Shown piece after piece: positions 11,032 to 14,694 of a stretch of 21,492 nt of DNA. Every line of letters starts with the position of its first letter. Position 1 is the first letter of the stretch. Made by a program: the position numbers and the translations under genes. The notes below the pieces were generated by a model. That model was not told where the DNA came from. It saw nothing but the letters and a program-made list of their open reading frames with translations, and made no database searches. The stretch is taken from the IMG/VR virus record IMGVR_UViG_3300042516_000769, positions 1 through 21,492 of that record. One strand, given 5' to 3'. The stretch comes from a virus.

Positions 11032-11706
11032 TCACTTCCCTCCGATCTTGGCGATGACTGCACCGAGGTCCGGTGCCTCCCAGGCGTCCAGCTTCCCGCT
11101 GCGGTCCTTGGCCAGCCAGAGGCCGTCTGAGTCGCACATCAGGGCGCGCTGGGTGTTGTTCTCGCTGTCCTTCTCGACACGCAGCGCCAGCACCTCGTCG
11201 AAGAAGTAGGGAAGAGCCTGTCCGGTCTTGTTGCCAGGCATCGAGGGCGCGTACAGCACGCGGCCCATTTCGTCCTGGGTCTTCTCCAGCTTGGCGCTCA
11301 TGTAGACGTGCCGACCAGGCAGGTCGCGGAATGCGCGGATGATGTCTGCCATCTGCTCCTGCATTGCACCGTAGGCCTGGCGTGGGTCTTTGGTGGCCTT
11401 CTTCTCGGCATTGAGCACCACCTCAGCGATCTCGCTGATGGAGTCCAGCGCGACCGACTGGAACCCCTTGGCCTCGTCGGACTGCGTCAGCCAGGTGTAG
11501 GCCTCCCGCAGCGTCTCCATGTCGCTGATCTCGATGAAGGGCAGGTCGGCGTCCTGGATGGACAGCAGGCCTCCTTCAGCAGACAGCACGATGGGCTGCG
11601 GCAGGGTCTTGATCAGTGAGGTCTTGCCTGCACCGGCCTGGCCGTAGACCAGGACTTTCACACCGTTGGCAGCCAGGCTGCCGGTGGTCTTCACGTTGAT
11701 TGCCAT
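11032..11706 (-). CDS. Sak4-like RecA-fold ATPase (AAA_24), 224 aa
   Basis: Walker A GQAGAGKTS lies at 22-30 and Walker B ALDSIS at ~86-91 after a short strand-helix core, the minimal RecA fold of Sak4/AAA_24 proteins. Sak4 recombinases anneal or exchange single strands and work with an SSB, which matches the DUF669 gene two genes downstream. ATG at 11706 has AAGGAG seven bases upstream; the longer in-frame extension crosses a terminator hairpin and is rejected. A plain phage NTP-binding chaperone role is the main alternative. Confidence 0.85.
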   Translation of the reverse strand: MAINVKTTGSLAANGVKVLVYGQAGAGKTSLIKTLPQPIVLSAEGGLLSIQDADLPFIEISDMETLREAYTWLTQSDEAKGFQSVALDSISEIAEVVLNAEKKATKDPRQAYGAMQEQMADIIRAFRDLPGRHVYMSAKLEKTQDEMGRVLYAPSMPGNKTGQALPYFFDEVLALRVEKDSENNTQRALMCDSDGLWLAKDRSGKLDAWEAPDLGAVIAKIGGK

Positions 11707-11728
11707 GTTGGCTCTCCTTCTTGGTTGC

Positions 11729-11752
11729 AAAAATGGCCGGCTTGCACCGGCC
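11729..11752 (-). terminator. Intrinsic terminator after the first leftward gene
   Basis: Read leftward, GGCCGG, loop TGCAAG, CCGGCC is followed directly by ATTTTTGC. It lies between the stop of the 127-aa gene and the Shine-Dalgarno site of the Sak4-like gene, so it should end or attenuate leftward transcription before the recombination genes. Confidence 0.7.
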
Positions 11753-11761
11753 TCGTTGTTG

Positions 11762-12145
11762 TCAATGAGCAGCGCGCTCAGCGAAGACACGCTGCAGCTC
11801 GATACCTTGACTGACATACTCGTCAGAACCGTAGACCGGATCGACTTCGTACCACTGAGTCGCATCCAGACGACCACCTTCTGCCAGGCGATCCTGAACA
11901 CGAGCCACCAGGCGCTCCAGGCGTGCGGTGGCATCTGCGCGCAGATCAGGGAAGTGCGGCTCGCCCGTCTCTTCGCAGTATTCGCACTTGGTGCCATTGA
12001 TGGCCAGGTTGTGCCTCCAGCGGCGACCGGTGTTCACGTTCACCAGCTCGACGAAAAAGCGCTCAGCGATGAAAGGATGACCATCGTCTTGACGACCTGC
12101 GTCGAACAGGTCAGAAACGACACCGACTTCAAACTTGCTGCTCAT
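11762..12145 (-). CDS. First gene of the leftward operon, hypothetical 127 aa
   Basis: ATG at 12145 with AGGAG six bases upstream; the open frame continues upstream through the promoter region and is not used. The product begins MSSKFEVGVVSDLF, has beta strands around RFFVELVNVNTGRRWRHNLAING, a C54-x2-C57 pair (CEYC), and a helical part (DATARLERLVARVQDRL). No family is recognised. Being the first gene after the leftward promoter and before a terminator, it is produced earliest and possibly at the highest level, but a role such as antitermination is only speculation. Confidence 0.75.
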   Translation of the reverse strand: MSSKFEVGVVSDLFDAGRQDDGHPFIAERFFVELVNVNTGRRWRHNLAINGTKCEYCEETGEPHFPDLRADATARLERLVARVQDRLAEGGRLDATQWYEVDPVYGSDEYVSQGIELQRVFAERAAH

Positions 12146-12195
12146 TTCAATCTCCTCGTTTGCTGCGCCTTCGGCCAATTCCGTTCGCGCAGTGG

Positions 12196-12224
12196 TTGAA
12201 CTGTAATCCATTCTGGAGTACCAT
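12196..12224 (+). promoter_or_regulatory. Rightward promoter for HTH/primase genes
   Basis: TTGAAC (12196-12201), 17-base spacer, TACCAT (12219-12224): four to five of six matches in each box. Transcription would begin near 12231, about 34 bases before the ATG of the HTH gene. It overlaps the leftward promoter almost completely. Confidence 0.5.
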
Positions 12225-12229
12225 GTCAA
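12200..12229 (-). promoter_or_regulatory. Leftward early promoter
   Basis: On the minus strand a perfect TTGACA (12229-12224) is followed after 18 bases by TACAGT (12205-12200). Transcription would begin near 12193 and lead into the 127-aa gene about 48 bases downstream. The consensus -35 makes it the stronger of the two opposing promoters. Confidence 0.6.
12203..12221. promoter_or_regulatory. 19-bp palindromic operator candidate
   Basis: GTAATCCATTCTGGAGTAC is a palindrome around a central TTC with one mismatched pair (arms GTA-A-TCCA and TGGA-G-TAC). It lies inside the spacer of both opposing promoters, so a bound dimer would block both. The HTH protein at 12265 is the likely ligand. Confidence 0.6.
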
Positions 12230-12264
12230 CACCCTGATGTGAAATTTTTACGACGAGGCCCAAA

Positions 12265-12453
12265 ATGCTGACCCTTGAACAAATCCGAGAGGCGCTGCGA
12301 GACCGCAGGCCTGGCCTGGTGGCTGAGGCCACCGGACTGCACCTGAACACTGTGCGAGACGTGCGCGATAACCCCACGGCCAACCCGACCTACAAGGTAC
12401 TCAAGGCGCTGTCGGACTACCTGACACGCAGGGAGGCCACGATCAATGGCTGA
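12265..12453 (+). CDS. Small HTH DNA-binding protein, Cro-like, 62 aa
   Basis: ATG at 12265 has GAGG upstream. The whole protein is one helix-turn-helix domain: IREALRDR helix, then PGLVAEATGLHLNTVRDVRDN (the turn and recognition helix) and TYKVLKALSDYL. This matches the XRE/Cro fold, with HLNTVR as the probable DNA-contacting helix. It sits directly downstream of the opposing promoters and palindrome and overlaps the primase-helicase gene by eight bases. It is likely the autoregulating switch protein. A CI-type partner is not visible in the window. Confidence 0.78.
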   Translation: MLTLEQIREALRDRRPGLVAEATGLHLNTVRDVRDNPTANPTYKVLKALSDYLTRREATING

Positions 12454-14467
12454 CCTGTCCAAAGTCCTGGGCGGCCCCTGGTCGCCACCACCCGAGAAGA
12501 GGGTGGCACCACCAGAAGAGCAACTGATCGACGCTATCAAGGCAGCCGGCCTGGAGCCACCAGAGCAGGTGATCCTGGACGGCAAGATTCACAGGTTCAG
12601 GTCCGGCACCAAGGGCACAGGCGGCAAGGGCGGCGACAAGCCTGGCTGGTACCTGGTCTTTGGTGATGGTGTGCCGGCCGGCCGTTTTGGCTGCTGGAGG
12701 GCTGGCGTCGAGGTGACCTGGCGCGCAGATGTCGGGCGCAAGCTGACACCCAGCGAGGAGATGGCACACGCCAGGCGCGTGGCCGAGGCCAAGGTGCTGC
12801 GCGATGCCGAGCTGGAGCGCCAGCACCAGGTCGCAGCCAGCACGGTCGAGACCATCTGGTCATCGGCCTCCGCGGCGCATCCAGATCACCCATACCTGGC
12901 GCGCAAGGGCATCAAGACGCACGGCGCACGCATCACAGGCGATGGCCGGCTTGTGGTGCCACTGTTCGACAAGGATGGCCAGCTCTGCAGCCTGCAGTAC
13001 ATCAGCCACGATGGTGGAAAGCTGTACCACCCAGGCGGCGAGGCTGGCGGCAAGTTCTGGATGGTGGGCACGATGGACGAGCCAGGCATGCTGTATGTGG
13101 CCGAAGGGTTCGCAACTGCGGCCACGGTCCACGAGACCACCGGCCGGCCCTGCGCGGTGGCATACAGCGCCAGCAACCTGGTGCCGGTGACAGGCACACT
13201 GCGCGAGATGTACGGCCAGCAGCAGACCATCGTCATCGTGGCCGACCACGACAAGGGTGGAGTCGGCCAGAAGTACGCCGACCAGGCCAGCGCCAAGTTC
13301 GGCGCGCGCGTGGTGATGCCTCCAATCGAGGGCATGGATGCCAACGATTATGCGCAGGCTGGCCACGATCTGGCAGGTCTGCTTTCCCCGGCCAAGGACA
13401 ACTGGCTGATCCCGGCAGACGACTTCTCGGCCCAGCCGGCCCCGATCTCCTGGCTTGTCAAGCGCTGGCTGCAGAGCCAGGCGCTGATCATGGTCCACGG
13501 CCCATCGGGCGGCGGAAAGACCTTTGTGGTGCTGGACTGGTGCCTGCGCATGGCCAGTGGCATGGCCGAGTGGTGCGGCCAGAAGGTGCGGCCAGGCAAT
13601 GTGGTCTACCTGGCTGGCGAAGGCCACCACGGCCTGCGTGGTCGCGTGGCAGCCTGGAAGCACCACCACCAGGCCGGCTCCCTGGCCATGTGGCTGTCCA
13701 AGGACGGCTGCGACCTCAACACCCCGGCCGGCTATCTGCAGGTGGTCGAGCAGGTGCGCGGCCTGCCAGAGAACCCGGCCATCATCGTGGTCGACACCCT
13801 GCACCGATTCCTGGCCGGCGACGAGAACAGCGCCCAGGACGCCAAGACCATGCTGGACGCCTGCAACAGCCTGATGAACGAGTTCAACTGCAGCGTGATC
13901 TTGGTCCACCACACTGGCGTGGCCGAAGAGGCCCAGCACCGTGCGCGCGGCTCCAGCGCCTGGCGAGGCGCTCTGGACATCGAGATCAGCATCGTGCCAG
14001 GCAAGGATGGCGTGCCTATGCAGATCGTGCAGCGCAAGTCCAAGGACGCCGAGCTGGCCAAGACCGTCCATGTCGAGCTGCAGCAGGTCACCATCCCAGG
14101 CTGGTATGACGAAGACAACCAGCCGGTCACCTCCGCGGTGATCGTCCAGGCTCAGGCTCCCACAGCGGCCAGGAAAGACAGCAAGATCGACAGCCATCGC
14201 AAGACCTTCGAGAACGCCTGGTGGGCATCCGGTGCCGAGGAGCGTAATGGTTTACCCTATCTCAGCCGGTCGGCAATGGTCGACTACCTGGTCCAGAAGA
14301 TGGACGTCAGCGAGGCCTCGGCCAAGCAGTACATCAAGCCCAGCAGCCCTGGAAAACCCATCGCAGACCTGCTGGTGGCCGAGATCATCGAGGCCTTTGA
14401 GCACGGTTGGCTGGTGGTCAATGACATGCATGCCAGCTCCATGCTGATCCGAAAGTCGGAGCGCTGA
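12446..14467 (+). CDS. Replicative primase-helicase (TOPRIM + RecA-like/RepA ATPase), 673 aa
   Basis: The N-terminal ~120 residues resemble the zinc-poor head of phage primases. A TOPRIM domain follows, with E220 in YVAEGFATA and D267/D269 in VADHDKGG. The C-terminal half is a RepA/AAA_25-type helicase with Walker A GPSGGGKT (352-359), Walker B IIVVDT (D450) and the VHHTG sensor (488-491). The last ~100 residues look like a winged-helix or DNA-binding tail (SRSAMVDYLVQKM). It should prime and unwind phage DNA. The origin-like region starts directly after its stop, as expected for a phage replication gene. Confidence 0.92.
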   Translation: MADLSKVLGGPWSPPPEKRVAPPEEQLIDAIKAAGLEPPEQVILDGKIHRFRSGTKGTGGKGGDKPGWYLVFGDGVPAGRFGCWRAGVEVTWRADVGRKLTPSEEMAHARRVAEAKVLRDAELERQHQVAASTVETIWSSASAAHPDHPYLARKGIKTHGARITGDGRLVVPLFDKDGQLCSLQYISHDGGKLYHPGGEAGGKFWMVGTMDEPGMLYVAEGFATAATVHETTGRPCAVAYSASNLVPVTGTLREMYGQQQTIVIVADHDKGGVGQKYADQASAKFGARVVMPPIEGMDANDYAQAGHDLAGLLSPAKDNWLIPADDFSAQPAPISWLVKRWLQSQALIMVHGPSGGGKTFVVLDWCLRMASGMAEWCGQKVRPGNVVYLAGEGHHGLRGRVAAWKHHHQAGSLAMWLSKDGCDLNTPAGYLQVVEQVRGLPENPAIIVVDTLHRFLAGDENSAQDAKTMLDACNSLMNEFNCSVILVHHTGVAEEAQHRARGSSAWRGALDIEISIVPGKDGVPMQIVQRKSKDAELAKTVHVELQQVTIPGWYDEDNQPVTSAVIVQAQAPTAARKDSKIDSHRKTFENAWWASGAEERNGLPYLSRSAMVDYLVQKMDVSEASAKQYIKPSSPGKPIADLLVAEIIEAFEHGWLVVNDMHASSMLIRKSER

Positions 14468-14471
14468 CCAT

Positions 14472-14495
14472 GAGTTATCCACAGAGTTATCCACA
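14472..14495 (+). repeat. Tandem 12-bp direct repeat with DnaA boxes
   Basis: GAGTTATCCACA occurs twice back to back without mismatch. Each unit holds a perfect DnaA box. A third TTATCCACA lies 170 bases downstream. Confidence 0.85.
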
Positions 14496-14505
14496 GGCAG
14501 GCATC

Positions 14506-14613
14506 GGTAACTGGTAACAGAACGGAAAAAAACGATATGAGTTACCTGGGGCAAAGGCGGCGATTTCGGTAACGTAACGTAATCCCCCCCTTTAGGGGGG
14601 GTTACCAGTTACC
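14506..14613. repeat. 13-bp perfect inverted repeat made of GGTAAC units
   Basis: GGTAACTGGTAAC (14506-14518) and its exact reverse complement GTTACCAGTTACC (14601-14613) flank ~80 bases. Further copies of GGTAAC or GTTACC lie at 14541-14546 and 14568-14573, with GTAAC at 14574-14578. The even spacing within each pair (7 bases) resembles initiator-binding iterons. Confidence 0.75.
14568..14613. repeat. C7/TTTA/G7 hairpin in the origin region
   Basis: Seven C residues (14584-14590), loop TTTA, then seven G residues (14595-14601). The stem extends outward with GTAA (14579-14582) pairing TTAC (14602-14605) around a bulged T, and GGTAAC (14568-14573) pairing GTTACC (14608-14613). No T-tract follows, so it is more likely a cruciform or single-strand origin structure than a terminator. 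Confidence 0.75.
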
Positions 14614-14694
14614 AAACGCTGCGGCGCTTTTCGGTACCGAGGCAACATAGAAAGTGGTGAAAAGTTATCCACAGGAAAGTTAGGAAGCACTAAC

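Follow-up and report, generated by a model that had tools for sequence, protein, structure and literature searches.

A probable phage replication origin whose iterons covary with the C-terminal domain of the adjacent primase-helicase

The DNA examined here is virus record G000 (21,492 bases, referred to as the window), and the element in question is the 227-bp gap at 14468-14694, between the stop codon of a primase-helicase gene (14467) and the start of a DUF3310 gene (14695), which from sequence comparison is very probably a replication origin. An earlier note on the same DNA had placed three perfect DnaA boxes in one orientation, six GGTAAC/GTTACC hexamers, a 13-bp inverted repeat spanning 108 bases and a seven-pair C/G hairpin with a TTTA loop right after the primase-helicase gene, and all of these were found, with the gap starting just past the stop codon. 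The DnaA box TTATNCACA has 3 copies in the window, all on the + strand and all within the gap; 0.09 copies are expected for the whole 21.5 kb, and 0/100 shuffles reach 3. GGTAAC has 8 copies, 6 of them (three + and three -) within the gap, with 1.9 expected for the whole window, and the arms of the inverted repeat lie at 14506-14518 and 14601-14613. The boxes, hexamers and hairpin in the gap far exceed chance. The gap and the gene preceding it comprise:

12446..14467, + strand: primase-helicase gene, 673 amino acids, with Pfam Toprim_3, AAA_25 (RepA/T7 gp4-like helicase) and a C-terminal predicted origin-reading domain
14475..14483, + strand: DnaA box 1, TTATCCACA
14487..14495, + strand: DnaA box 2, TTATCCACA
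14506..14511, + strand: iteron 1, GGTAAC
14513..14518, + strand: iteron 2, GGTAAC
14526..14532, + strand: A7 run between the converging iterons 2 and 3, 0.97 kept
14541..14546, - strand: iteron 3, GGTAAC
14548..14558, + strand: strand-specific box GGGGCAAAGGC, some 41 nt ahead of the hairpin centre
14568..14573, + strand: iteron 4, GGTAAC, then GTAAC half-copies
14584..14601, + strand: hairpin of 7 pairs (C7 14584-14590, TTTA loop 14591-14594, G7 14595-14601)
14601..14606, - strand: iteron 5, GGTAAC
14608..14613, - strand: iteron 6, GGTAAC
14618..14626, + strand: GCTGCGGCG, a GATGCGG-like box in the form it takes in the window, some 28 nt past the hairpin
14665..14673, + strand: DnaA box 3, TTATCCACA

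Searching with the window protein and with five of its diverged relatives yielded 425 loci. Relatives available in culture are the Alteromonas phages PB15 and XX1924 and the Idiomarinaceae phage 1N2-2. The earlier note had proposed aligning the gap in related phages to see whether boxes and hexamers are kept while flanking bases drift, and among 33 GGTAAC-class relatives (more than 76% identical) this pattern was observed. The DnaA boxes are kept at 0.88, 0.90 and 0.95 and the iterons at 0.92-1.00 (0.88-1.00 with loop and A-run included), the hairpin loop at 0.98 and its arms at 0.67-0.77, and all other gap positions at 0.58, with the last spacer at 0.48. In some relatives (e.g., L069) the iterons form a longer palindrome, with the A7 run as its loop.

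Folded as single-stranded DNA, the gap scores better than 200/200 shuffles (z -2.9). Covariation was examined in 85 distinct hairpins, selected by the criterion that a C-G pair closes a TTTA or TATA loop. Of these, 56-64 are paired at each of stem pairs 2-7, counts that are somewhat inflated by the choice of the best-pairing site; at stem pairs 3-7 all four Watson-Crick types occur, and most of these pairs exceed slid controls. Since the stem uses all four base-pair types while the loop is fixed, it is the structure of the hairpin and not its sequence that is kept. An intrinsic terminator was rejected as an identity for the hairpin, with 0 terminators found. Two further boxes flank the hairpin: GGGCAA[AG] is present on the strand of the GGGGCAAAGGC box in 70 of 121 nonredundant loci and on the opposite strand in 0 (shuffled mean 5.4), at a distance of 41 nt (37-43) upstream of the hairpin centre, and GATGC[AGT]G is present in 43 of the 121, with 1 on the reverse strand (shuffled mean 10.9). 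Rfam gave no credible match for the gap, its DNA gave short scattered matches only against sequenced phages, and GC skew over the 21.5-kb fragment carried no informative signal. AT skew changes sign at about 11500-12500, where the genes diverge, 2-3 kb before the origin.

Across the 425 loci the iteron word varies, on a layout that is retained in the other relatives: besides GGTAAC there are GGGAAC (L008), GGGACA (L006), GGTACA (phage 1N2-2), GGTTCA (Alteromonas phages), CCCCCT/GCCCCC (L086) and others. Within one phage all or nearly all copies switch jointly. Some reader must follow the word and change with it. The earlier note had supposed a second initiator for GGTAAC. A reader is indeed indicated by covariation, but it appears to be the C-terminal domain of the primase-helicase and not a separate protein. 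Residue 628 of this protein is Q in 39, M in 7, L in 1 and a gap in 1 of 48 GGTAAC loci, and V in 32/32 GGGAAC loci, which makes it the sole perfect amino-acid site separating the two classes, with sites 634 and 635 next best. The effect is a local one: elsewhere, third codon positions average about 0.6, and residues nearer the origin are weaker. In the closest pair, the window and L008, the primases are 98% identical and the words are GGTAAC and GGGAAC, and the 3' gene ends are near-identical except around codon 628 (CAG/GTC) and codons 632-636.

On a tree built from codons 1-560, which excludes the C-terminus, the iteron word switches 14 times, at least 11 of them on well-supported branches. 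Residue 628 follows the word in 11/11 independent pairs (p 0.00098), compared with 10.6 of 11 for residue 635, 5.9 for 634, and 3.9 and 2.0 for the controls 619 and 612. Among 82 nonredundant loci, restricted to GG[GT]NNN words, a Q, M or L at residue 628 comes with T as the third base of the iteron in 36/36 and V or T with G in 31/31 (67/67 without N and K). L421, which has an unrelated C-terminus, was excluded from this table; a naive alignment would make it count against the rule. The rule holds among relatives just 33-70% identical, and both QYIKPS and GGTAAC recur in L444, which is distantly related and closest to the Prim-Pol type. Word similarity was also compared with segment identity over 121 nonredundant loci representing many words. 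The partial correlation is 0.286 for segment 612-642 (0/200 permutations) and within 0.08 of zero for the others, including 643-673 nearer the origin. After the rule was made, 24 further genome-bin loci were found by an alignment query (a single-protein query found none); in these Q goes with T in 5/6, T with G in 1, K with G in 3/4 and N-M with G in 2/2, with no reversal of the rule and two loci having A as the third base.

The part of the protein that carries these residues is encoded as follows:

14171..14464, + strand: C-terminal domain, residues 576-673, predicted iteron reader, with winged-helix-like order H-E-H-H-H-E-E-H
14327..14329, + strand: codon 628 (CAG, Gln), which tracks the third base of the iteron
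14345..14350, + strand: codons 634-635 (Ser-Pro), secondary word-associated residues

The full-length AlphaFold2 model has a predicted local distance difference test score (pLDDT) of 85 and matches T7 gp4 in Foldseek with E 2.6e-16, and its helicase matches RSF1010 RepA (PDB 1g8y/1olo) with TMt about 0.70. The C-terminal domain was modelled with pLDDT 95.4 and pTM 0.86, and its predicted elements (H577-594, E603-607, H608-618, H623-629, H638-644, E648-651, E654-657, H660-672) come in winged-helix order; the fourth is a short helix, and residue 628 lies at its end. Most Foldseek matches of this domain in the PDB are winged-helix proteins (MotA, CRP/FNR, Fur, forkhead). It has no match in Pfam or PHROGs, and a sequence search of the PDB returned no significant match and no detectable kinship with any solved structure; the full-length protein has only partial primase or helicase matches in PLSDB. 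In L006, L216 and L253 the Toprim part is replaced by Prim-Pol and PriCT_1, while the AAA_25 helicase and downstream iterons are kept, and in most of them the hairpin also. Helicase, C-terminal domain and origin thus accompany two primase types that are unrelated to each other, and reader and origin form a unit that is better conserved than the primase.

The anatomy, its conservation, the hairpin covariation and the word-residue coupling were observed directly, and in their light we consider it highly likely that the gap is a phage replication origin and an iteron replicon run by one polypeptide, in which the C-terminal domain of the primase-helicase is the reader. As in iteron replicons, clustered copies of one short word adjoin the initiator gene; a cognate initiator of matching specificity is indicated here by covariation alone. 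For the events at the origin (physical binding, helicase loading, priming, DnaA recruitment and firing), we infer from these patterns the following course. The C-terminal domain would bind the six GGTAAC iterons, which form converging groups around the A-run and the hairpin, with residue 628, aided by 634/635, picking the third base of the iteron. Bound subunits would then come together at the iteron array as the RepA/T7 gp4-like hexameric helicase, and the hairpin with its fixed TTTA/TATA loop, exposed or extruded, may serve for entry of the helicase or for the fused primase to prime. In the window's clade the three DnaA boxes would add host DnaA, probably helping to melt the DNA or to recruit parts of the host replisome.

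Several observations weigh against this assignment of the reader or limit the residue rule. The 82-locus table covers GG[GT]NNN words only, and within it residues N and K at 628 break the simple rule, N being mixed (8 G, 5 T) and K going with G in 2. In L447 and L441 the third base of the iteron is A, and the word register for the genome-bin loci (e.g., CGTAAC) was chosen by eye. Several GGGAAC origins (L008, L010, L013 and similar ones) retain one GGTAAC, at the second iteron position about 45 nt past the primase stop codon. None of the PDB fold matches of the C-terminal domain is significant, the best having E 0.11.

The earlier note had pictured a DnaA-dependent iteron origin, and comparison strongly supports the origin with its iterons, hairpin and boxes, but not DnaA boxes as part of its core. 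In a fully DnaA-led origin, host DnaA would be the main initiator and the iterons would be bound by another phage protein with a helix-turn-helix (HTH), an arrangement that the three perfect conserved boxes of the window's clade would suit and that we nevertheless find very unlikely. Against a background of 0.010 per 260 nt, DnaA boxes are present in 79 of the 110 loci in the window's clade (187 forward, 6 reverse) and in 27 of 48 loci of the L006 clade, all reverse and thus in the opposite orientation. Among the other relatives they occur in 2 of 124, many of which retain iterons and hairpin. A cluster of DnaA boxes in the origin, the mark of a DnaA origin, is therefore found in two clades only; the boxes look like a clade-specific add-on, acquired at least twice, and dependence on DnaA is plausible in the window's clade but accessory, because so few other relatives have boxes while many keep iterons and hairpin. 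The HTH protein concerned, which the earlier note had named among the proteins that might bind the gap, is encoded upstream:

12265..12453, + strand: 62-amino-acid Cro-like HTH gene, overlapping the primase start, phrog_18104 transcription regulator

This protein is probably a regulator. As the iteron reader it was rejected: L008 and L012 share an identical HTH yet differ in word, and elsewhere the gene is replaced by unrelated types. Sak4, SSB, the neighbouring open reading frame and the exonuclease were likewise rejected as word trackers, with no column above 0.90.

An autoregulatory or incompatibility site, at which binding of the C-terminal domain to the iterons would regulate its own gene or the copy number, with replication starting elsewhere, is just as improbable. 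It would yield equal word-residue coupling, and P4 has such a second site, crr. However, the iterons follow the gene rather than sit at its promoter, the loop of the hairpin is fixed while its stem covaries, DnaA boxes share the gap in two clades, and no comparable second array was seen within the flanks and fragments covered.

Rather less probable still is hitchhiking, that is, the word and residue 628 travelling together in recombined segments with no contact between them. The spacers between iterons also differ between word classes, so origin segments have been exchanged. Yet the association is focal and convergent, with nearer and silent sites weaker and the nearer segment 643-673 without partial correlation; a stretch that is otherwise near-identical differs at codons 628 and 632-636, and the rule extends to the distant relatives described above. 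A site for packaging (pac) or partition at which the reader is the terminase small subunit, whose gene starts about 200 bases downstream, deserves the least credence, as no terminase column tracks the word (TerS and TerL, rejected as word trackers, reach a balanced accuracy of 0.73 and 0.79 at best) and the gene after the gap differs among relatives.

The component parts of the replicon proposed here, an origin read by the C-terminal domain of its own helicase-primase, are known elsewhere, from P4 alpha, pRN1, phage-inducible chromosomal islands (PICIs), PICI-like elements (PLEs) and geminiviruses. T7 gp4 is like the window protein in joining a Toprim primase to a RecA-fold helicase, whereas the window protein has an extra C-terminal domain of 98 residues; T7 gp4 is not known to have a C-terminal DNA-reading domain. 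The helicase of P4 alpha belongs to superfamily 3 (SF3), and that of the window is instead a RepA/T7 gp4-like RecA-fold helicase (AAA_25). P4 alpha has a Toprim primase, a helicase and a C-terminal winged-helix origin-binding domain in one polypeptide that reads short iterons (PMC4234260), an order that the window protein shares with a predicted winged-helix reader, although the fold match is weak; unlike in P4, the origin here directly follows the gene, with a covarying hairpin and, in the window's clade, DnaA boxes. In pRN1 (orf56 repressor, ORF904) a repressor gene, a primase-helicase with a C-terminal winged helix and a downstream origin follow one another, and the stem-loop of the origin is kept in structure and not in sequence (PMC4234260). 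Gene order and the preference for stem-loop structure over sequence are the same here, whereas the archaeo-eukaryotic primase, the SF3 helicase, the lack of iterons and the stem-loop of about 100 nt are pRN1's own. The oriV of RSF1010 resembles the present origin in its RepA-fold hexameric helicase, its iterons and its hairpins, used there for priming, but RSF1010 has separate RepA, RepB' and RepC and two single-strand initiation (ssi) hairpins, and here helicase, primase and predicted reader are one protein.

In PICIs such as the Staphylococcus aureus pathogenicity islands (SaPIs), the parts of the source that we draw on place the origin directly 3' of pri-rep, with two iteron sets around an AT-rich stretch and iterons that differ between elements (PMC6092414); the location 3' of a primase-replication gene, the iteron sets around an AT-rich stretch and the element-specific iterons are all shared, and those parts report no residue-to-base rule. 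In the PLE satellites (RepA_N/ori), initiator and origin covary, and attack on the origin by the Odn nuclease of ICP1 selects new iterons (PMC8263062). PLEs have two classes with long iterons, compared here with many classes of short word and one residue that tracks them, and the domain is at the opposite end of a helicase-primase here. Geminivirus Rep, with its iteron-related domain, has short iterons that diversify and specific Rep residues that follow (PMC12548392). The iteron-follows-residue logic is the same; Rep is a rolling-circle protein of single-stranded DNA plant viruses and the proteins are unrelated. No paper among the openly licensed ones searched was found to describe a T7 gp4/RepA-class helicase-primase that has its own reader together with an uncatalogued domain and a one-residue rule.

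We are evenly divided on the wider proposal, drawn from the whole comparison, that these loci represent a class of replisome starters that load themselves: a RecA-fold (T7 gp4/RepA-class) helicase-primase with its own origin reader would recognise, open and prime the origin as one protein. Its simple residue-to-base code would have been re-keyed repeatedly (at least 11 word switches in one clade), probably under replicon interference or origin-directed attack, and reader and origin would outlive replacement of the primase, be it Toprim or Prim-Pol. The loading of ring helicases onto origins and the forces that change origin words are usually approached one system at a time. Here many natural protein/word pairs share one layout, and a single residue predicts a single base, so that point changes can test binding, loading and incompatibility. 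The findings also give a way to locate origins in unannotated phage genomes of the family, and a small re-keyable origin module.

Some loci depart from this arrangement. All 29 of 29 loci with a 'KYI'-type C-terminus (e.g., L349, L350, L376, L293) have no iterons after the gene; their origin must lie elsewhere or work differently. Upstream of the primase (window, L007-L086), at least four unrelated types of HTH gene have been exchanged at one place, as in an immunity/regulator cassette. In L421, L247, L248, L438, L440 and L442, unrelated C-termini accompany other downstream words (TGTTAC, CTAACA, GATGCA, GTGAC), and some of these loci share the same CCTTTAGG/CCTATAGG hairpin.
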